A stretch of 64,000 nucleotides of DNA from NCBI GenBank assembly GCA_013151035.1, contig JAADJB010000013.1, positions 1 to 64,000 on the forward strand. The letters run 5' to 3'. Below, piece by piece: positions 1,887-60,214 of the stretch (position 1 is its first letter; every line of letters starts with the position of its first letter). The notes under the pieces are model-generated. The model made no database searches, was not told the origin of the DNA, and saw nothing but the letters and a program-made list of their open reading frames with translations. This DNA is from Gammaproteobacteria bacterium (lineage in GTDB: Bacteria > Pseudomonadota > Gammaproteobacteria > JAADJB01). The translations under genes and the position numbers were made by a program.

Positions 1887-3791
<1,905 letters not shown>

Positions 3792-3797
3792 AGGGAT

Positions 3798-6362
3798 ATG
3801 ATGAATAGTCAGGAAAAACAGTTAAGGGTACGTCATTACCGTCGTCTGGATGCGCGTTCTGATCGGAAGGAACTGGTGACTGAGGTTGTCACCATCGGTT
3901 CGGAAACAGGGCTTTTTCTGGAAAAGATGGAAGAAAAAAAGATGACTCGCGCCTGCTTCCTGACCATTGATATGCGAGGTAAGGTGCAGGGGCAGTGTAA
4001 GCGTTATATCCTCGATGATCGTGTTTTTCATCTGGATAATATCTCTTATGCAATTTATCGGAAAGGTCTTGCTGATGATAACGGTGTCTATACCCTGGCA
4101 ACCTACGAAGCGATTGTGAATGGTGAACACACCTATCGCATGATGCGTAAGAAGAAAGATACCTTTGTGCCCACCGCGCCAGGAGAGGATGAATCATCAC
4201 AGGCTCGTCCGCGTGAATCCGGGCCGTCACGCGTTGAGGTTAGTGGGGGTGAGTTCTCTCGTACAGGTGTTTTGTACAGTCCACCCATTATCCCCTTTGG
4301 TTATCATAAACGTCGTGGTGAGGAACGTTTGCAATATGTGACAGCGATCAAGATGAACACGGGGGGGATGATGCATGATGCCTCGACACGCGATATCTCG
4401 GTCTCGGGTGTCCTGATCGGGGTTAAGGGTTTCTTTGATTTTGAATACGGTGAAGTGGTTGAGGTTGATTTCACTCTGTTACAGGATGAAGATGAGGCTG
4501 AAGGTGTTGAGCTGACCGGTTTGAAATACGTTGTTAATCATATTGAGCGTAAAGCAACGGAATGCCTGTTGGGTCTGCGTATTATGGAAGAATCGCATAC
4601 GGAGGCATTTGAGGCCTATATTCTGGGCTTGATTGAACGTTATCGGCGCAAATACAAGCTGGACGTTGAGGATGAGTTCTGGACGGCTGCTGCCTGGATT
4701 TATGAACGTGCCTACACCGAAAACCTGATCCCCTTACCCTTCTTTGTGTCTCAGGATGATGAGGGACGATTACAAACACAGACCGTGATTGTTGCCGATG
4801 GTAATCAACCGCTACAGGACTTTTTTAAGGATCAGGGCGGGTTGGATGATTATTCCCCACTGGGTTTGCCGCATCGCTTGCAATATTTGCAAGAGCATGG
4901 CGAGCTGATTATGGCGTTGTACCATGTTGATGGCGATAAGGGTGCAGGTCTTTATTCAGCAACCAGCAATGAGTTTGAATCAACGGATGACTGGTATCGT
5001 TTTCTACGTTATGCCTTGGGACGCAAGGACTATCGTGTGCTTAAGATGGCAGTCTCTTCCATCCCGCTGAAGATGCCCAATGCAGAAAAGGTTGAGGGCA
5101 TCATGGAATCAATGATGGAATGTTGTGAAGAAGATGCGAAGGATTTGTTAAGTCAGATTTCATTGCTCTCCTTTTCTGCCCAGTTGATTGATATTACCGT
5201 ACAGATGAAGACTTTGCTTGAGATCAGGGGTGATTCAACTCGGGTCGAGGATATGAGTGGCATCCAGGTGTGGACGAAGAATGTGCGTTGTCATGTGGTG
5301 GATGGTAGTGTGTCGAAGACCTTATCTGAGGAAGATGCCGCATTGTTTCCGGAGCTGATTCATTTTGGTCGTATTTATGCGCGTACTGAGCACCGTTATG
5401 TTGCCGAGATCGGGGTGGATATCAAGGTGGATGGTAACAAGATAACAACAGTTACCAAGGATCTTTCGGTCCGTGGTCTGTGTGCTGTATTACCCCGTGA
5501 CGTAAGTCTTAAGGCTGATAGTGAGGTTTCTGTGGGTCTGCCCAAGTTACAGAAAATGTGTCCTAATGCCAGTTTGAGTGATATTCCTTATCGTCTGGTC
5601 AAGGTGGTGGCAGGACGAGAAAATCGCCTGATGCTGGAACGTGTCCGAGGTAATCATTTAAATGATGAGCTGGATAAATTCTTCATTGATTTGATTGATA
5701 GAAACAAGAAAAAATTGAAGGTCGATCGTGAAGATATCAATAGTACGGCAAACATACGTTTGCATGAAAGTATTGTTGTTGATAATCTTGCTGGCGTGCC
5801 CTTTTTTATTGCCCGGGATGACCAGGGTAAGGCGGTGATGCAGTGGGTTGCGATCTCGGATAAGCCCTCTTCATTAGGTGAGTTTTTTCGTTCTGAAGAT
5901 GGTCGTTATGATTTACGCTGGATTACTGAAGCGCGGGTGGTGGTGGATCTGTTTGGTAGCGTGATCGCAATGCGAGGTAGTTCCTCTTCAAATAGTCAGC
6001 GTAAAACACATGATGGTGTAGAGATGTATTTTTACAAGACGCAAGGTGCTGAAGAGGGTGGAGCGGAGATACATGCAGCCAGTGCGTTAGAATTTCTGGA
6101 AGATGGAGAAAAAGAGAGATTTATCAGCAAGGCGATTGCATCGGGTGATTATCTCTTTGTTAAATTAATGGTGACCTATACCATGGATCTGGATCCAACA
6201 GAATTAAGTCATGTGCTGGATCCATTGAGAACCTATTCGAGACATAAGGTGTTTAAGTTACAGGGGCAATTACGATCATTATTAGGTTGTGGCGAGATGT
6301 TTGATATTAGCGGAGAGATACTGTTGACGTATGGCAAGGAAACGTCCGGAGATGCTGTGTAG
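3798..6362 (+). CDS. Large protein with two PilZ domains in an internally duplicated architecture
   Basis: An 854-residue cytoplasmic protein without signal peptide or membrane segments. Two PilZ-like cores are visible, with DISVSGV (about 199-205) and KDLSVRGL (about 554-561); each fits the DxSxxG motif of c-di-GMP-binding PilZ domains. An Arg-rich stretch (KRRGEER) precedes the first core and RIYARTEHRY the second, the expected position of RxxxR. What follows each core is also repeated: ENLIPLPFFVSQDDEGRLQ in the first half, VDNLAGVPFFIARDDQGKAV in the second. The protein is therefore a tandem duplication of a PilZ-plus-partner unit of about 350 residues. Its role is unknown; c-di-GMP binding is inferred from the motifs. 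It lies between parE and parC with 6-bp and 0-bp gaps, so it should be co-transcribed with topoisomerase IV. The ATG ATG start follows AAGGG. Confidence 0.8.
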   Translation: MMNSQEKQLRVRHYRRLDARSDRKELVTEVVTIGSETGLFLEKMEEKKMTRACFLTIDMRGKVQGQCKRYILDDRVFHLDNISYAIYRKGLADDNGVYTLATYEAIVNGEHTYRMMRKKKDTFVPTAPGEDESSQARPRESGPSRVEVSGGEFSRTGVLYSPPIIPFGYHKRRGEERLQYVTAIKMNTGGMMHDASTRDISVSGVLIGVKGFFDFEYGEVVEVDFTLLQDEDEAEGVELTGLKYVVNHIERKATECLLGLRIMEESHTEAFEAYILGLIERYRRKYKLDVEDEFWTAAAWIYERAYTENLIPLPFFVSQDDEGRLQTQTVIVADGNQPLQDFFKDQGGLDDYSPLGLPHRLQYLQEHGELIMALYHVDGDKGAGLYSATSNEFESTDDWYRFLRYALGRKDYRVLKMAVSSIPLKMPNAEKVEGIMESMMECCEEDAKDLLSQISLLSFSAQLIDITVQMKTLLEIRGDSTRVEDMSGIQVWTKNVRCHVVDGSVSKTLSEEDAALFPELIHFGRIYARTEHRYVAEIGVDIKVDGNKITTVTKDLSVRGLCAVLPRDVSLKADSEVSVGLPKLQKMCPNASLSDIPYRLVKVVAGRENRLMLERVRGNHLNDELDKFFIDLIDRNKKKLKVDREDINSTANIRLHESIVVDNLAGVPFFIARDDQGKAVMQWVAISDKPSSLGEFFRSEDGRYDLRWITEARVVVDLFGSVIAMRGSSSSNSQRKTHDGVEMYFYKTQGAEEGGAEIHAASALEFLEDGEKERFISKAIASGDYLFVKLMVTYTMDLDPTELSHVLDPLRTYSRHKVFKLQGQLRSLLGCGEMFDISGEILLTYGKETSGDAV

Positions 6363-8612
6363 ATGAAGGCAATGGATCTTGATTTTGAGGGTGTTGAACG
6401 TCAACCGTTAAAGAACTTTGCTGAACAGGCCTACCTGGATTATTCCATGTACGTTATTCTCGATCGTGCTTTGCCGCATATTGGTGATGGGTTAAAGCCC
6501 GTGCAGCGCCGTATTATCTATGCGATGTCTGAGTTGGGGCTTTCGGCGACTGCCAAATATAAGAAATCAGCACGCACGGTGGGTGATGTGCTGGGTAAGT
6601 TTCACCCTCATGGCGATAGTGCTTGTTATGAGGCGATGGTGTTGATGGCACAACCCTTTTCCTATCGTTATCCGTTAGTGGATGGTCAGGGTAACTGGGG
6701 CTCAGCGGATGACCCCAAGTCCTTTGCCGCGATGCGTTACACCGAGTCGCGTCTGGCGGCTTATGCCGAGGTATTGTTATCTGAGCTGGGGCAGGGCACG
6801 GTGGATTGGGTGCCTAATTTTGATGGCACCATGGAAGAACCCTCGCTGCTACCTGCACGTCTACCGAATGTATTGTTGAATGGTACCACGGGTATTGCGG
6901 TGGGTATGGCGACCGATATCCCTCCACATAATCTACGCGAGGTTGTCAGTGCGGCTATTCACTTGTTGGATACGCCGAAGGCTAGTGTTATTGATTTGTG
7001 TAAGCATATCCAGGGCCCGGATTACCCGACCGATGCTGAGATTATTACAGCGCCTGATGATCTGTTGGCAATTTATGAGCAAGGTCATGGCTCAGTGCGT
7101 ATGCGTGCCTGTTATGAACGGGAACAGAGTGAGATTATTATTACCGCATTACCGCATCAGGTGTCGGGTAACAAAGTGCTGGAACAAATTGCAGCGCAGA
7201 TGACGGCTAAAAAACTGCCCATGGTTGAAGACCTGCGTGATGAATCCGATCATGAAAATCCGACGCGTCTGGTGATTGTGCCGCGTTCTAATCGTATTGA
7301 TACCGATGCCTTGATGTCACATCTGTTTGCCAGTACCGATCTGGAAAAAAGCTATCGGGTTAACCTGAATATTATTGGTCTGGATGGCCGCCCCCAGGTT
7401 AAGGATTTACGCATGATCCTGAAGGAGTGGCTGACGTTTCGTTTAACCACAGTGCGTAAACGTCTGGAATACAGGCTTGATAAAGTGCTTCGTCGCCTGC
7501 ATATCCTGGATGCCTTATTGATTGCCTATCTCAATATTGATGAGGTGATTGCGATTATTCGTAATGAAGAAAAGCCTAAGCCAGCATTGATGAAGCGTTT
7601 TCAGATCACTGAGATTCAAAGTGATGCCATTCTTGATCTAAAACTGCGTCACCTGGCGCGGCTGGAAGAAGTCAAGATTGTTGGTGAGCAGAAAGAACTG
7701 GCGGATGAGCGTGATCAGTTACAGACACTACTCTCCTCAAAGCTTCGTATGAAGACCTTGATTCGTAAAGAGCTGATGGCGGATGCAGAAAAGTATGGTG
7801 ATGAACGACGTGCGCCGATTGTAAGACGTGATGCGGCGCAGGTGATGGATGAAACAGCTCTGGTTCCGAGTGAACCGGTGACTATTGTGTTGTCGAAAAA
7901 AGGTTGGGTGCGTTCGGCTAAAGGGCATGAAGTTGATGCGCAGGGCCTGAATTACAAGGCGGGCGACGCTTTCCTTGTGGCAGTTTGTGGCCGCAGTAAT
8001 CAAATGGTGAGTTTTATTGATTCTACCGGACGCACTTATTCATTATCCGCATACCTGCTACCTTCTGCCCGAGGTCATGGTGAACCTTTAACAGGTCGAT
8101 TGAATCCGCCTGATGGCTCGGTCTTTGCCGGTATGATGATGGGTGTTGATGAGGATCAGTATTTACTATCCAGTGATGCCGGTTATGGTTTTGTAGCCAC
8201 CTTAAAGGATTTAATGGTCAAGAATAAGGCCGGTAAGGCAGGTCTTAATGTGGCTAAGGGTGGTCGTGTGTTAGCCCCGGTCAGGGTGACTAATTATCAA
8301 ACTGATTTACTGGCAGTGGTGAGTAATGAAGGGCGTATGCTGGTGTTTTCAATACAGGATCTGCCGTGCTTGTCACGAGGTAAGGGTAATAAGATTATGG
8401 CAATCCCGAAGGTGAAGCGGGATGCTGGAGAGGAATATATTGTGGGCGTTGCCGCTGTTCCTGAAGGTGGTGTGTTGGAGTTGGTCTGTGGTAAGCGTAG
8501 TATGAAGTTGAAGTACAAAGAACTGATTGATTATCAGGGCGAACGGGGTCGACGTGGGAACAAGTTGCCACGTGGTTGGCAGAAGGTGACCGCAGTTAAT
8601 TCAGGTCAGTAG
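6363..8612 (+). CDS. parC: DNA topoisomerase IV subunit A
   Basis: ParC is the DNA-cutting subunit of topoisomerase IV and works as a ParC2ParE2 heterotetramer. It has 749 residues, the normal length. The catalytic tyrosine is in [10 protein letters not shown], and the breakage-reunion domain carries [20 protein letters not shown]-type sequence ([19 protein letters not shown]). The quinolone-resistance-determining stretch reads [13 protein letters not shown], with the wild-type Ser and Glu at the positions of E. coli Ser80 and Glu84, so no target-site resistance is visible. The C-terminal half has the degenerate beta-pinwheel repeats and lacks the GyrA-box, which fits ParC and not GyrA. The ATG follows directly on the stop of the PilZ gene. 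Confidence 0.96.
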
Positions 8613-8644: not shown

Positions 8645-8675
8645 AACTTCGCGTTTAATGGGATGCGAGATATCA

Positions 8676-10364
8676 ATGGTTGAGTTTATACTCAAATATG
8701 AAGCCAGTATTCGCCTGAGTATGTTTATTGGTGCCGCTATCTTGCTTGCCTTGTGGGAATGGTATCGACCAAGACGAAAACTCACACAAAATAAGTCAAA
8801 ACGATGGCTGAATAATATTTCATTAATTATTAGTGGCACTATTCTGGTCAGGTTTTTTATTCCAGTGCTTGCGGTCGGGGTTGCTTATCTGACGGAGAAG
8901 AATGATTGGGGTTTTGCTAATCATTTTGAAATGAGTGGTTGGGCTCGGTTTGTTGTAACATTTGTTCTGCTCGATCTTATTATTTATTTACAACATTTGA
9001 ATTTTCATGAGATCCCTGTGTTATGGAGACTACATCGTGTGCATCATTCAGACCGGGATTGTGATGTCTCTACGGGTGTACGTTTTCATCCCATCGAAAT
9101 CCTTCTTTCTATACTGATAAAAATGACGGCCATTATTATTCTGGGTGCGCCTGTTATAGTGGTTGTTGTATTTGAATTAATGCTTAATGTGATGTCGATG
9201 TTTACCCATTCAAATATTGCCCTGAATGAGCGGCTGGAACGGATTTTGCGTTGGGTTTTTGTAACGCCGGATATGCACCGAATTCATCATTCAACCCGGG
9301 AGAATGAGGCGAATAGTAATTTTTCTTTTCATATATCCCTGTGGGATCGACTTTTCGGTACCTATATTGCTTCACCTGAAGGTGGTCATTTGAAAATGAA
9401 GATCGGTCTTGATCAGTTTGATGAAGATCAATGGCAAACCTTTACCGGCTTGCTCTATACCCCCTTTAGTAGTGGCAATATTGGTTATTCAATTAATCGT
9501 CGTGATACACGCAATGCAGATGAGCTGCATAAGTTGAATGAGCAATTAAAAATAGAGATTAATGAAAAGAAAGAACATGAAAAAGAATTGATTATTGCCA
9601 GGGACAAGGCCTACGAGGCCAGCAGGATAAAATCCGAGTTTTTATCAAATATGTCCCATGAATTGCGAACCCCGATGCATGCTATATTATCCTATTCATC
9701 ACTGGGTATGAACAAGATAGATAATGCGGAAAGGGATAAATTGCTGGGGTATTACACGCGGATCAATATGAGTGGTGAAAGATTACTTGTTTTGATTAAT
9801 GATTTACTGGATCTGTCTAAGCTGGAAGCGGGGAAGGTGGATTTTTTATTTAAAAATATTTGTATGCAGGGTATTGTTGAATCGGCAATTGCAGAGCTGG
9901 ATATGTTGGCACAAGACAAAGGGGTGGATGTTCGTTATATTCCTGCGAAATTTGATACCGATAGCTGTGTTGATGCAGACAAGATTATGCAGGTAATGTT
10001 AAATCTGCTATCGAATGCAATTAAATTTACGCCCGCTGGAGGAATGGTTAATGTCCAGATAAAGGAGCAGTCATTAGTAATTGGCAGAAGGAATACCGAT
10101 AATTCATCAATGCCGGCACTGGCGGTCTCTGTTATTGATCAAGGGGTGGGTATCCCCGAAGATGAGTTGGAGGCGGTATTTGATAAGTTTGTACAAAGTA
10201 GTCAAACAAAAACGACAGCCGGTGGTACCGGGCTTGGGCTGAGTATTTGTAAGCAAATTATAAACTGTCATCGAGGGACGATTGCAGCGAGTAATAATTC
10301 GGGTAAGGGTGCGGCATTTACCTTTGTTGTGCCCAGGAATCTGTCAGGGAGTAGGGTGTTTTGA
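8676..10364 (+). CDS. Membrane fatty-acid-hydroxylase (sterol-desaturase-like) domain fused to a histidine kinase
   Basis: A 562-residue two-part protein. The N-terminal ~270 residues form a multi-pass membrane domain with the histidine clusters of the fatty acid hydroxylase/sterol desaturase superfamily: HLNFHEIPVLWRLHRVHH, a further His in GVRFHP, FTHSN, and TPDMHRIHHS. In the family these ligands hold a di-iron centre. After a charged, probably coiled-coil linker (KLNEQLKIEINEKKEHEKE) comes a transmitter: H-box FLSNMSHELRTPMHA, N-box NLLSNAIKFTP, G1 DQGVGIPEDE, F-box FDKFVQ, G2 GGTGLGLSICK. No receiver or regulator gene is next to it. A role in sensing membrane lipid or oxygen/iron state is inference only. 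The start at 8676 (MVEFILKYEA) is preferred; an ATG at 8658 is in frame but has no clear ribosome-binding site. Gene fusion seems certain because the frame is uninterrupted. Confidence 0.85.
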   Translation: MVEFILKYEASIRLSMFIGAAILLALWEWYRPRRKLTQNKSKRWLNNISLIISGTILVRFFIPVLAVGVAYLTEKNDWGFANHFEMSGWARFVVTFVLLDLIIYLQHLNFHEIPVLWRLHRVHHSDRDCDVSTGVRFHPIEILLSILIKMTAIIILGAPVIVVVVFELMLNVMSMFTHSNIALNERLERILRWVFVTPDMHRIHHSTRENEANSNFSFHISLWDRLFGTYIASPEGGHLKMKIGLDQFDEDQWQTFTGLLYTPFSSGNIGYSINRRDTRNADELHKLNEQLKIEINEKKEHEKELIIARDKAYEASRIKSEFLSNMSHELRTPMHAILSYSSLGMNKIDNAERDKLLGYYTRINMSGERLLVLINDLLDLSKLEAGKVDFLFKNICMQGIVESAIAELDMLAQDKGVDVRYIPAKFDTDSCVDADKIMQVMLNLLSNAIKFTPAGGMVNVQIKEQSLVIGRRNTDNSSMPALAVSVIDQGVGIPEDELEAVFDKFVQSSQTKTTAGGTGLGLSICKQIINCHRGTIAASNNSGKGAAFTFVVPRNLSGSRVF

Positions 10365-10367
10365 GTC

Positions 10368-10408
10368 CTTTCCTGATACAATAGCGGCTTTTAATATCAT
10401 CAGGAAAG
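10368..10408 (+). promoter_or_regulatory. Inverted repeat covering the DUF1015 ribosome-binding site
   Basis: CTTTCCTGAT (10368-10377) and ATCAGGAAAG (10399-10408) are perfect 10-bp inverted arms around a 21-nt loop. The right arm contains the AGGAAAG that should act as ribosome-binding site for the ATG at 10413, so a folded transcript would hide it. It could alternatively be a protein-binding dyad. A TACAAT at about 10376-10381 might be a -10 box, without a recognisable -35. Confidence 0.4.
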
Positions 10409-10412
10409 AATA

Positions 10413-11645
10413 ATGTCTTTGATCCAACCCTTTGCAGGTCTGCGTCCAGTGGATGGTCGTGCGAATGATGTAGTTGCCCCGCCTTATGATGTGTTAAATA
10501 GTGCTGAGGCGCGTACCCGTGCTGAAGGTCGTCCCTGGAGTTTTTTGCATATCTCTAAACCAGAGATTGATCTACCGGAGGGAACTGATCCCTATGCGCC
10601 AGAGGTCTATGCCAAGGCGGCAGAGAGTCTTGCCCATATGCGTGATGAAGGTGTGCTGGCGCAGGATGCAAGCCCTTGTTATTACGTCTACCGTATGCAT
10701 ATGGGTGATCATGTGCAGACCGGCCTGATGGCAGCAGCATCGGTTGCTGATTATGATACCAATCGTATTCGTAAGCATGAATTTACCCGTCCTGCCAAAG
10801 AGGATGACCGGGTACGTCAGATCGAGGCATTAAATGCACAAACGGGCCCGGTATTGCTGGCCTATGCCTCCTTTAAGCCACTGGATGATTTGTTATTAAA
10901 GATCGCTGAGGGTTCGGCAAATGTTGATGTGACTGCCGATGATGGGATTCGCCATGAATTATGGGTGTTAACCGATGAGGCACAGATCGCACAGATTACG
11001 CAGTGGTTTGATGATATGAAGGCGATTTATATTGCCGATGGACACCATCGTTCTGCCTCCGCATCCAGAGTTGCTGCGGCGCGTCGTGGACAGGCAGAGG
11101 GTGAGCAGGCCTGTGATTATTTTCTATCGGTAATTTTCCCGCATAATCAGATGAAGATTCTGGATTATAACCGGGTGGTTAAGGATTTGAATGGTCTTTC
11201 AATTGAGGATCTATTGGCGCGTATCGCAGAGCACTTTGATGTGGTGATGAGTGATGAACCGGTAGCACCCGCGCAGGTGGGTGAGTTTGGTATGTATGTA
11301 GACGGACGCTGGTATCGCTTGAATATCCATACGGATCGTATTCCGCAGGATGATCCGGTGGCACGACTGGATGTGAGTTTGTTAGCGGATAACCTGTTGG
11401 CACCCTTACTAGCCATCATGGATCAGCGTACCGACACGCGCATTGATTTTGTCGGCGGTATCCGTGGACTGGATGGTTTGGAAAAGCGTGTTGATAGTGG
11501 TGAAATGGCAGTCGCCTTTTCCATGTTTGCGACTCGTATGGAAGATCTGATGGCGGTGGCGGATGCCAATGAAGTGATGCCACCAAAATCGACATGGTTT
11601 GAACCTAAACTAGCGGATGGCCTAGTGTCACATCTGCTTGACTAG
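10413..11645 (+). CDS. DUF1015 family protein
   Basis: A 410-residue soluble protein of the DUF1015 family, found widely in bacteria and archaea. Recognisable landmarks are the N-terminal RANDVVAPPYDVLNSAEA, the middle RKHEFTRPAKEDDRVRQIEA and the most conserved YIADGHHRSASASRVAA. The GHHR segment recalls the DGHHR motif of the ParB/sulfiredoxin-like fold. The biochemical function is not securely established for this family and none is claimed here. The ATG has an AGGAAAG ribosome-binding site that lies in the arm of an inverted repeat (10368-10408). The gene appears to be monocistronic and is followed by a 264-bp gap with a family A repeat. Confidence 0.85.
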   Translation: MSLIQPFAGLRPVDGRANDVVAPPYDVLNSAEARTRAEGRPWSFLHISKPEIDLPEGTDPYAPEVYAKAAESLAHMRDEGVLAQDASPCYYVYRMHMGDHVQTGLMAAASVADYDTNRIRKHEFTRPAKEDDRVRQIEALNAQTGPVLLAYASFKPLDDLLLKIAEGSANVDVTADDGIRHELWVLTDEAQIAQITQWFDDMKAIYIADGHHRSASASRVAAARRGQAEGEQACDYFLSVIFPHNQMKILDYNRVVKDLNGLSIEDLLARIAEHFDVVMSDEPVAPAQVGEFGMYVDGRWYRLNIHTDRIPQDDPVARLDVSLLADNLLAPLLAIMDQRTDTRIDFVGGIRGLDGLEKRVDSGEMAVAFSMFATRMEDLMAVADANEVMPPKSTWFEPKLADGLVSHLLD

Positions 11646-11690: not shown

Positions 11691-11795
11691 CAAGAGACAT
11701 GGGTTGCTCTTCTCTAGCAGAGACCGTTGCACGCAGGGATGCGGGCATCGAGCCTACATGGATGTATTCACGGCGTGTCTCTGCTAGAGGAGAGT
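11691..11795 (-). repeat. Dispersed repeat, family A, copy 1 (inverted orientation)
   Basis: An element of about 105 bp whose reverse complement matches the copies at 21519-21625 and 24155-24261. The inner inverted repeat is of the type CTCTAGCAGAGAC ... GTCTCTGCTAGAG. This copy is more diverged than the other two. It fills most of the gap between the DUF1015 gene and the acetyltransferase gene; nothing else is seen in 11646-11909. Confidence 0.75.
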
Positions 11796-11909
11796 GACGC
11801 ATATCTCGAACTTTCTGGACATGTTTTTTAATTATGCCGTTACATAGGGTTAAAATAATTCTTAACGGGGTAGCAATGTTCATAGACAACAGAGATAACG
11901 GAGATAACG

Positions 11910-21167: not shown

Positions 21168-21491
21168 ATGGCAATCACAATAACAGAGATGGCGGCCGCG
21201 CATATCCAGAAGTTCCTTGGTAATCGTGGCAAGGGGCTGGGTATTCGTTTGGCAGTAAAGACGAACGGTTGTTCCGGAATGGCCTATGTTATTGAATTTG
21301 TTGATGCGCTGGATGAAGTCGATCAGGTATTTGAGGGTCATGGTGTTAAGGTGATTGTTGATCCTAAGAGTCTGGTTTATCTGGAAGGCACCGAGATTGA
21401 TTTTGTTAAGGAAGGCCTGAATGAAGGTTTTCAATTTAACAATCCGAATGTTAAGGATACTTGTGGTTGTGGTGAGAGTTTTAATATCTAG
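21168..21491 (+). CDS. iscA: A-type Fe-S carrier IscA
   Basis: A 107-residue A-type carrier that delivers iron or clusters to target proteins. The three conserved cysteines lie in [12 protein letters not shown] and the C-terminal DTCGCGESF. It starts 2 bp after the iscU stop. A family A repeat follows before hscB. Confidence 0.97.
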
Positions 21492-21518
21492 AATAATCGG
21501 TGGGTTTGAAACATGAAT

Positions 21519-21625
21519 CACGCTTCTCTACCAGAGACACGCCGTGAATACATCCATGTAGGCTCCACGCCCGCGTCCATGCGGGCAAGGGTCTCTGATA
21601 GAGAAGCGCAATCCCTGTCTCTTGA
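21519..21625 (+). repeat. Dispersed repeat, family A, copy 2 (inside the isc operon)
   Basis: An element of about 107 bp with inverted ends: CTTCTCTACCAGAGAC (from 21523) against GTCTCTGATAGAGAAG (to about 21606). It contains an inner palindrome CCGCGTCCATGCGGG and ends in CCCTGTCTCTTGA. It is nearly identical to copy 3 at 24155-24261 (one clear difference, ATCCATG against ATCCCTG). It lies between iscA and hscB and is open in the hscB frame, producing an apparent 43-residue extension of HscB that is judged artefactual. Confidence 0.85.
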
Positions 21626-21641
21626 GTATAGGTTAGCGTTG

Positions 21642-22181
21642 ATGGATTATTACGAGTTATTTTCCCTGGAAGTGAGTTTTGTTATTGATCGTAGTGATCT
21701 ACAGGCGCGTTATCGTGATATGCAACGTGCCATGCATCCGGATCGTTTTGTCTCTGCGGGTGATCAGGAACGGCGTATTGCGATGCAGAAGTCGACGCAG
21801 ATCAATGAGGCGTTCAGGATATTAAATGATCCTATGGAACGTGCGCGTTATCTATTGGAACTTGGCGGTTATGCCTGGAGTGATGAGGCATCGACAACCC
21901 GGGATAGTGCTTTTTTGATAGAACAGATGGAGTTGCGCGAGGCGATCTCGGCGGTGCGTGATGCGGATGAGCCTTTTGATGCCTTAGGGCATATTATGGA
22001 TGTGATTATTAAGGCCTTGATGGCTTATGAGCAGGAATTGGTCGTATTGTTTTCTGGTGATACAAAGGAAACAATGGGCAATATTGCTGATATTATTAAG
22101 AAGATGCAGTTTTTCCGCAGGCTTGAGCAAGAGGGTTTTGAGCTGGAGGCGGAGTTGGAAGATATAGAGGCGGGTGCGTAA
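21642..22181 (+). CDS. hscB: Fe-S cluster co-chaperone HscB
   Basis: A 179-residue J-protein that brings IscU to HscA and stimulates its ATPase. It shows MDYYELFSLEVSFVIDRSD, the J-domain motif MHPD (AMHPDRFVSAGDQERRIAM), INEAFRILNDPMERARYLLE, and the C-terminal IscU-binding helices. The start is placed at the ATG of MDYYELF, which matches the family N-terminus; the frame is open upstream to 21513 only because it runs through the family A repeat. Spacing to hscA is 68 bp. Confidence 0.94.
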   Translation: MDYYELFSLEVSFVIDRSDLQARYRDMQRAMHPDRFVSAGDQERRIAMQKSTQINEAFRILNDPMERARYLLELGGYAWSDEASTTRDSAFLIEQMELREAISAVRDADEPFDALGHIMDVIIKALMAYEQELVVLFSGDTKETMGNIADIIKKMQFFRRLEQEGFELEAELEDIEAGA

Positions 22182-22249: not shown

Positions 22250-24121
22250 ATGGCTTTATTACAAATAGCAGAACCGGGTCAGGCGACGGTTGCACATGAG
22301 CATCGTCTGGCAGTCGGTATTGATCTGGGTACGACTAATTCTCTGGTTGCCTCGGTGCGTAGTGGTGTCGCTGATACGCTAGCGGATGCCGACGGTCGGC
22401 ATCTATTACCATCGGTTGTTCATTATCAGGAAGACGTTGCGCCCGTTGTTGGTTCTGCGGCAAAACAGTGGGTTACCAAAGATCCGTTAAATACCATTGT
22501 CTCGGTGAAACGTCTGATGGGACGTGGTGTAGAAGATTTGGCGCAGTTGGATAAACATTTGACTTATCAATTTTCCGATGTCGAATCCTCGGTACCACGG
22601 ATTCATACGGCGGCAGGTGATGTGAGTGCTATTGAAGTCTCTGCTGAGATCCTGTTAAACCTGAAGAGACGTGCGCAACAGACATTGGGTGGTGACTTGC
22701 AAGGGGCTGTCATTACAGTGCCAGCCTACTTTGATGATGCCCAGCGCCAAGCCACACGGGATGCAGCAAAACTGGCGGGTTTGAATGTATTGCGCTTATT
22801 AAATGAACCGACTGCAGCGGCTATTGCCTATGGGCTGGATCGTAATGCAGAGGGTATTATCGCGGTCTATGATCTGGGTGGTGGCACCTTTGATATATCA
22901 ATATTAAACCTGAATAAGGGTGTGTTTGAGGTTTTGGCAACCGGTGGTGATACCGCTCTTGGTGGTGATGATATGGATCTGGCCATCGCGCACTGGATGA
23001 TTGCGCAAGCTGGGTTAGAGGATGCACTGGATCATCATTTAATGCGGCGGGTGATCCATGATGCCTGTGTGGCGAAGGAGCAGTTAACTGAGCAGGACGT
23101 GGTGATGGTATCCATTGATGCGGCTGATGCCGGTTCCTGGCAGGGAGAACTGAGGCGAGCACAGCTAGGTGAATTGATTGATGGGTTGATTCGTTCAACC
23201 TTGAAGACCTGCCGACAGGCATTGCGTGATGCGGGTATACGCGCTGGTCAGGTGGACGATGTGGTGCTGGTGGGTGGTTCAACACGGGTGCTAGAGGTGC
23301 GTGATCGGGTGTCTGAGTTCTTTTCTACAACCCCAAAGGCGGATATTGATCCGGACAAGGTAGTAGCGATTGGTGCGGGTGTGCAGGCGGATATCCTGGT
23401 CGGTAATAAACCGGATGATGATATGCTACTGCTGGATGTGATTCCGCTTTCTCTGGGTATTGAAACTATGGGTGGTTTGGTGGAACGTATTATTCCACGT
23501 AACACCACGATACCGGTTGCCAGGGCGCAGGAATTCACCACCTTTAAGGATGGGCAGACGGCATTGGCGGTTCACATTTTGCAGGGTGAACGCGATCTGG
23601 TCTCAGATTGCCGTTCACTGGCACGTTTTGAGTTGCGTGATATCCCGCCGATGGTTGCCGGTGCTGCGCGCATACAAGTCACTTTGCAGGTCGATGCTGA
23701 TGGTTTATTGAGTGTGCGTGCGTGTGAAGAGACCAGTGGCGTGCAGGCGCATGTGGAGGTGAAACCCTCTTATGGTCTGTCGGATAATGAGATAGAGACC
23801 ATGCTGAGAGATTCGATGGATCATGCTCAGGATGATATTGTTGCGCGTCGTTTGCGTGAGCAACAAGTTGATGCGGATCGCGTGCTGGAAGCGATTCATG
23901 CGGCTCTGCAGCAAGATGGTGAACGTTATTTATCTGTTGAGGAACGCGAGTTGATTGATCAGGCGGTTGCTGGGCTGGCGGGTGTTGTTCAGGGTGATGA
24001 TCATGTTGCGATTAAGGCGGCTATTGCGGGTCTGGAAAAGGTGAGTGCGGACTATGTGGAACGGCGGATGAATGCGAGTATACAGCAGGCGATGTCGGGG
24101 CATAAGGTTGATGAGTTTTAG
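22250..24121 (+). CDS. hscA: Fe-S cluster chaperone HscA (Hsp70 family)
   Basis: A 623-residue Hsp70 homologue (E. coli 616) that helps release clusters from IscU by binding its LPPVK motif. The ATPase domain shows [53 protein letters not shown] and [13 protein letters not shown]. The substrate-binding domain starts with [17 protein letters not shown]. The lid region is helical, ending in a short tail without a DnaK-type EEVD-like end. It is followed by a family A repeat and then fdx. Confidence 0.97.
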
Positions 24122-24154
24122 GATAAAATATGCTTGGTAAGTTCGAGGCAGGAA

Positions 24155-24261
24155 TCATGCTTCTCTACCAGAGACACGCCGTGAATACATCCCTGTAGGC
24201 TCCACGCCCGCGTCCATGCGGGCAAGGGTCTCTGATAGAGAAGCGCAATCCCTGTCTCTTG
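24155..24261 (+). repeat. Dispersed repeat, family A, copy 3 (between hscA and fdx)
   Basis: This copy is almost identical to copy 2 over its full length of about 107 bp, in the same orientation, with the same inverted ends and inner palindrome. It occupies most of the 207-bp hscA-fdx gap. Confidence 0.85.
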
Positions 24262-59263: not shown

Positions 59264-60214
59264 ATGTCTTGTATGAAAATCCTGTTGGTTGATGATGCCA
59301 TGACGGATCGTTTCGTTATGACAACTTATCTGGAGAAGATGGGGCATGATGTGCTCACCTGTAGTAACGGACAGGAGGCAGTAGCGGTTTATCAAAGTGA
59401 AGAGCTTGATCTGGTCTTTATGGATGTCATGATGCCGGTTATGGATGGTTATGAGGCAGCAAGAACGATTCGTGATTGTTCAGATGATTGGATTCCGATT
59501 ATCTTTTTAAGTGGTCGGGCAGAGCCGGATGATATTGCCAAGGGTATTGATGCGGGCGGCGATGACTATCTATTCAAGCCGATCAGTTATGTCGTACTGG
59601 AGGCGAAAATCAAGGCGATGCAACGGATAGCAACGATGCGTCATAACCTGTTGCAGGTGTCCGGTGAACTGGAAAAAGCGAATAAGGCGTTGCAGCATCT
59701 GGCAAATATTGATGGCTTGACGGGGCTGTCTAATCGTCGGCACATGGATGACTTTTTGCAGTTCGAGATTGCCCGGGGGCTCCGTTATCAACAACCGTTG
59801 ACTGTGATCCTGGCGGATGTTGATTATTTCAAGCGTTATAACGATCACTATGGACATCTTGCCGGTGATGATTGCCTGAAAGATATTGCTTCAGCACTGA
59901 CTTCAGTGTGTCAGCGTGATACGGATATGGTTGCGCGTTATGGTGGTGAAGAGTTTGTTGTTATTTTATCCAATACCCCTCTTGAGCAAGGGCGCTTATT
60001 GGCAGAGCGTTTACGCCAGGAGATTATTAATCGTGATATACCCTATGTCGACCATGATGGCTCTGATGTGTGTACCTTGAGTCTAGGGGTTTATAGTGCG
60101 CTGCCTGATGCCACAATGAATGCGGAGATGTTTCTACAGCAGGCTGATTTTTCCTTGTATAAGGCAAAAAAGGGTGGGCGTAACCAGGTCGTGGTTAGTT
60201 CAATTAATAAATAA
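59264..60214 (+). CDS. Response regulator with diguanylate cyclase (GGDEF) output
   Basis: A 316-residue protein. The receiver domain starts MKILLVDDAMTDRFVMTTYL, has the phospho-acceptor in LDLVFMDVMMPVMDGYEAAR and the Lys of DYLFKPI. After a helical linker comes a GGDEF domain with the active motif RYGGEEF, and the inhibition site RDTD (RxxD) five residues before it. It should make c-di-GMP, with feedback inhibition. GGAGGA precedes the start; ATGs at 59255, 59264 and 59273 are all possible. It is the only c-di-GMP synthase in the window and could act on the PilZ protein at 3798, but no link is shown. Confidence 0.92.
   Translation: MSCMKILLVDDAMTDRFVMTTYLEKMGHDVLTCSNGQEAVAVYQSEELDLVFMDVMMPVMDGYEAARTIRDCSDDWIPIIFLSGRAEPDDIAKGIDAGGDDYLFKPISYVVLEAKIKAMQRIATMRHNLLQVSGELEKANKALQHLANIDGLTGLSNRRHMDDFLQFEIARGLRYQQPLTVILADVDYFKRYNDHYGHLAGDDCLKDIASALTSVCQRDTDMVARYGGEEFVVILSNTPLEQGRLLAERLRQEIINRDIPYVDHDGSDVCTLSLGVYSALPDATMNAEMFLQQADFSLYKAKKGGRNQVVVSSINK

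Follow-up and report, generated by a model that had tools for sequence, protein, structure and literature searches.

A membrane hydroxylase module as probable input of a histidine kinase in a gammaproteobacterium

Results and discussion

What does a complete membrane hydroxylase do at the N-terminus of a histidine kinase? The question arises from one gene in a stretch of 64,000 nucleotides (contig JAADJB010000013.1, positions 1 to 64,000), here called the window, which was assigned to a gammaproteobacterium. A first-pass annotation, made from the letters of the sequence, had described a fusion of a fatty-acid-hydroxylase domain with a kinase transmitter and had proposed either a sensor for lipid, oxygen or iron or an enzyme regulated by phosphorylation. 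The literature consulted regards membrane hydroxylases and desaturases as enzymes. Our analysis describes the gene product as an inner-membrane sensor kinase which very probably uses a complete membrane hydroxylase module as its input.

The fusion gene and its hydroxylase half

A single open frame at 8676-10364 (+) encodes the protein of 562 amino acids (aa). An alternative ATG at 8658 may give a slightly longer product; the start was placed by homology, as the homologues begin at the position matching 8676. The opposite strand of 8676-10364, read in one frame, has many stops. Upstream lies parC, ending at 8612, and downstream a gene for a DUF1015 protein, starting at 10413, both on the strand of the fusion gene, and stress or metal genes are absent directly beside it. 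An inverted repeat, tttcctgat ... atcaggaaa, is located at about 10369-10409, in the gap that separates the fusion gene from the DUF1015 gene.

The hydroxylase module, aa 1-277 (8676-9506, +), has the extent of an entire stand-alone homologue. Such stand-alone proteins measure about 287 aa; from the first residue on and over almost their full length they can be aligned to aa 1-283, and among the matches listed their identities to the window module are about 46-54 %. Pfam recognized FA_hydroxylase (PF04116) at aa 92-229 (core 8949-9362) with 102.7 bits at a cut-off of 31 and an E-value of 3e-29, covering the profile from 1 to 132 of 132 positions. The full set of histidine clusters reported in the first pass is present: all ten family-invariant residues (His 107, 111, 120, 123, 124, 138, 178, 201, 204 and 205) were found, and not one was lost in any of the 138 stand-alone or the 8 fused proteins. 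On the plus strand they form the boxes H107xxxH111 (8994-9008), H120xxH123H124 (9033-9047) and H201xxH204H205 (9276-9290), together with the single residues H138 (9087-9089) and H178 (9207-9209), the latter directly preceded by T177. Position 177 is asparagine in 99 % of the stand-alone proteins versus threonine or serine in all eight fused ones, and at position 125, also beside a ligand, the alanine of the stand-alone proteins is replaced by serine or threonine in all eight. Glycine 217 is changed to serine or alanine in 7 of 8 fused proteins. Of the 76 positions strongly conserved in the family, 51 are retained in all eight. The ligand-adjacent changes in the alignment suggest a metal site that was tuned, not lost.

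An AF2 model of aa 1-329 had a mean pLDDT of 89, with long helices at 9-30, 40-75 and 88-112, a hairpin at 139-177 and low confidence at 274-280. Fold matches of the hydroxylase model were predicted viral fatty acid hydroxylases and desaturases (probability 1.00, E-values down to 3e-9); the PDB contained neither a fold match for the model nor a sequence relative of the module among solved structures. The solved structure of yeast Scs7p contains zinc (PMC10002949), and by analogy with this protein and the family the histidine metal site is expected close to the cytoplasmic side of the membrane. A positive loop at aa 28-48 fits a cytoplasmic placement of the histidines. In profile comparisons the named family that comes closest is OlsE (NCBIfam NF052566), an ornithine lipid hydroxylase. 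The cut-off of this model, 475, was passed neither by the stand-alone copy of the own genome (103 bits) nor by one of the fused cyclases described below (L097, 95.5 bits), and OlsE was absent from the best 25 matches of the window protein, where kinase models dominate.

The kinase half and its linker

The annotated C-terminal transmitter is indeed complete. It consists of HisKA at aa 319-386 (9630-9833, +; 58.0 bits), with the phospho-acceptor H328 at 9657-9659, and of HATPase_c at aa 433-554 (9972-10337, +; 92.0 bits), both by Pfam and with scores clearly higher than the cut-offs. In the kinase alignment the H-box HELRTP, which holds H328, and the conserved N, G1, F and G2 boxes are intact. 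A linker helix, aa 278-318 (9507-9629, +), runs into the first helix of HisKA; its beginning carries the motif RDTxNAxEL (aa 276-284), which is common to 5 of 7 fused relatives with a GGDEF output and missing in G786 and G784. AF2 predicted an unbroken helix from the hydroxylase module to the phospho-acceptor (278-328), and in the model of the kinase part a helix extended over 276-346 through HisKA. The latter model is the kinase part of a full-length prediction made with an alignment of kinases only, in which the kinase was folded and the hydroxylase was not. By description, not by profile, the connecting helix resembles the signalling helices of PMC1592074.

In the searches, the closest relative of the kinase half had 53 % identity, and the members of this kinase sub-family have, judged by reading, highly varied N-terminal parts. 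Orphan kinases are common. The window kinase is one of them, in line with the first-pass remark that a cognate regulator is not adjacent: the nearest receiver domain on the contig, at 59279, is about 49 kb distant from the fusion gene. Elsewhere in the own genome (L086 675-5254, contig C26), another member of this kinase sub-family is encoded divergently from a gene for a REC-HATPase_c_2 protein, which is followed by a gene for a REC protein of 386 aa, and other inspected loci of related kinases adjoin similar-looking genes. Since REC genes stand beside the related kinases, such regulators might, as a weak indication, be candidate partners in trans for the window kinase. The C-terminal part of the second REC protein, about 250 aa, has no domain assignment.

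Hydroxylases of the same sub-clade on other outputs

The search for homologues covered 369 genomes from the class and 398 from the phylum, and the homologues that were listed and followed up were stand-alone proteins. A scan of the contig collection with the single protein yielded no matches; with the family alignment (best 80 matches), two gammaproteobacterial MAGs ranked first (L096 and L097). Their hydroxylases are fused to PAS-GGDEF and 61-64 % identical to the window module, and thus closer to it than any stand-alone relative among the matches listed, with at most about 54 %. A search of the corresponding order revealed five more fusions, two of about 610 aa with one PAS domain (G787 and G791) and three of about 890 aa with three PAS regions (G782, G786 and G784). 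The motifs RxxD and GGEEF are retained in 7 of 7 fused cyclases. No further fusions were listed in an additional sample of genomes of the class. Fused members are rare: within one order, 7 of 54 genomes had one, and so did the genome of the window. A look for the same fusion elsewhere, as advised in the first pass, gave the seven cyclases and not another hydroxylase-kinase; among the genomes searched, the kinase form was found in one only. No plasmid record covers 80 % of the window protein, phages had just two distant partial matches and viral contigs none. Two candidates were rejected on inspection: a 569-aa frame (G155:C16) that had seemed a second fusion is merely an upstream open frame, and a long frame in L095 (G438) is actually a protein of 299 aa.

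In a maximum-likelihood tree of 69 modules, the 8 fused hydroxylases stood on one side of a branch and the 61 stand-alone ones opposite, with a support of 100/98. A single change between fused and stand-alone state is sufficient on this tree, versus a mean of 7.7 in shuffles. Because the eight share one side of this branch, the module appears to have been fused once; a single recruitment of the hydroxylase with its linker, followed by an exchange of the output between kinase and diguanylate cyclase, is the probable history. The branching of kinase and GGDEF forms within the fused group is weakly supported (95/61), G784 and G786 are long branches, and the midpoint root serves for drawing only. 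Among four fused GGDEF proteins, the hydroxylase part had a dN/dS of 0.06-0.11, a rough value with several pairs near dS saturation, which did not exceed the value for the GGDEF part. The ten conserved histidines and the low dN/dS together indicate that the metal site of the fused proteins appears still to be in use.

Gene neighbourhoods

The gene of the fused cyclase overlaps msrB by 4-11 bp in four genomes, where it follows rhodanese and REC-GGDEF genes. In another case it starts with a GTG that shares bases with the stop codon of a znuB-like gene, and in two genomes yaaA precedes it on the same strand at a distance of about 100-170 bp. YaaA reduces free iron under peroxide (PMC8115020). An ArsR-rhodanese gene was near 35 of 78 stand-alone loci and a VTT-rhodanese gene near 32 of 78, versus 0 of 19 control stretches; these categories were picked after the genes had been seen. 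The neighbours of fused and stand-alone relatives point, with moderate weight, to redox, sulfur or metal biology. Because msrB, znuB and yaaA are beside the fused cyclases, the sensing of an oxidant or a metal by these relatives is suggested.

Two of the loci deserve a description. In the locus L199 3869-9670, the gene overlapping the znuB-like gene encodes a hydroxylase-PAS-GGDEF protein of 890 aa, and znuC-like and divergent znuA-like genes adjoin. The stand-alone copy of the own genome (L064 5720-7368, contig C15) is divergent from an ArsR-rhodanese regulator gene and is itself followed by a VTT-rhodanese gene; this pair recurs in the vicinity of many stand-alone relatives.

Proposed mechanism and alternative readings

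The hydroxylase is the constant part of the fused proteins and the outputs differ, therefore the hydroxylase is read as the input. The idea that an enzyme fold serves as the kinase input, already voiced in the first pass, is well supported by the seven other genomes where the same sub-clade sits on diguanylate cyclases, and a sensory role of the module is, from comparison of sequences, very probable. We propose that the complete ten-histidine module of the fatty-acid-hydroxylase/sterol-desaturase superfamily would respond to a change at its metal site, either of the metal occupancy or of the redox, O2 or peroxide state. This change would travel along the unbroken helix at aa 278-328, reach the dimeric HisKA helix and set the autophosphorylation at H328, and the phosphate would pass in trans to an unlinked response regulator. 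We give this full explanation, a hydroxylase that reads its metal site and drives the kinase through the helix, a probability of about 0.5. The kind of signal is a separate matter, for which an oxidant or a metal may be put at even odds. Among the stimuli named at the outset, oxygen and iron are best supported, by the metal site and the msrB, yaaA and znuB neighbours, and lipid is the less probable signal.

A lipid as signal has its own logic. A former substrate or product in the channel would drive the kinase, and the metal would be structural or only position the ligand; the superfamily acts on lipids, OlsE as the closest named profile family hydroxylates ornithine lipids, and with Ks-Amt5 a substrate-binding membrane protein has been made a kinase input (PMC5764959). 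The genes next to the fused relatives, however, belong to redox and metal functions and not to lipid functions, and we regard the lipid sensor as unlikely, though the first of the alternatives to be considered. Less probable again is a bifunctional protein that still hydroxylates a lipid, with an output that reports the turnover of O2 and substrate or a kinase that controls the enzyme. The ten histidines and the 51 of 76 positions intact in all eight fused proteins would suit an active enzyme, but every fused protein is altered beside two ligands (N177 and A125), and the own genome has a separate stand-alone copy, as do at least four of the genomes that carry a fused cyclase. As the module also sits on cyclases, outputs that phosphorylate nothing, it is unlikely that the kinase generally serves to control the enzyme, and the regulation of an enzyme by phosphorylation, offered in the first pass, is disfavoured.

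The metal-reading input has also to be held against the view that the module just holds or dimerises the kinase and that the signal is sensed elsewhere. The one or three PAS domains of the GGDEF relatives could be their true sensors, but Pfam found no other input domain in the window protein, a pure anchor has no need for ten invariant histidines, and the module is under strong purifying selection; we consider a mere anchor very improbable. That a base or assembly error joined two genes, or that an inert fusion arose by chance, can hardly be believed. A second hydroxylase-kinase is lacking among the genomes searched, which would agree with an artefact, but the sub-clade is fused in seven other genomes, the start of the linker is common to five of them, and the helix is predicted to be unbroken across the joint. 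A base error or assembly joint was therefore rejected, and the first-pass concern about separate genes joined by error is answered by relatives that carry the same module fused.

Relation to known systems

The precedents are sensor kinases and cyclases with an input derived from a membrane enzyme or transporter. Ks-Amt5, in which a histidine kinase is attached to an ammonium transporter domain (PMC5764959), resembles the window protein in using a functional membrane protein as input of a C-terminal kinase, in having no separate sensor domain and in an unlinked regulator. In contrast, it belongs to the Amt family, forms a trimer and lacks a metal centre, whereas the window protein has a hydroxylase with a histidine metal site. 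Di-iron hemerythrin domains serve as inputs of GGDEF domains, e.g., in Bhr-DGC (PMC8846402, PMC9388753); they share with the fused hydroxylases the metal-centre input on GGDEF and read oxygen or redox state, but they are soluble four-helix proteins of an unrelated family, unlike the integral-membrane ten-histidine module, which in the window has a kinase output. MHYT proteins (PMC8846402) are likewise integral-membrane putative sensors on various outputs, though of a different six-helix family. The window protein had no Pfam match to hemerythrin, ammonium transporter or MHYT domains. OlsE and the stand-alone sterol desaturase proteins are of the same superfamily as the module, and the stand-alone relatives keep the ten histidines, but they are enzymes without an output.

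The open-access literature searched contained no description of a kinase or GGDEF domain joined to a fatty acid hydroxylase or a sterol desaturase, and neither a census of c-di-GMP sensors nor a review of histidine-kinase sensors named a hydroxylase input. Within this literature the hydroxylase input appears to be new. The chances are evenly divided that a membrane hydroxylase was recruited once as an exchangeable input of kinases and cyclases which reads oxidant, O2 or metal (or lipid), and hence represents a so far undescribed class of sensors. If true, it would be a new type of integral-membrane metal-centre sensor with all ligands kept on two signalling outputs, a tractable system for what such a metal site can sense, and a lead on the many unnamed stand-alone proteins of the sterol desaturase family beside rhodanese and ArsR genes.

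Two further features of the window were recorded. An 854-aa protein with two PilZ matches is encoded at 3798-6362 (+) between parE (1893-3791) and parC (6363-8612), an unusual location. A dispersed repeat of about 120-150 bp is present in copies of 84-89 % identity at 11691-11813 (-), 21476-21624 (+) and 24113-24261 (+); the copy at 21476 extends into the beginning of the annotated frame 21513-22181.
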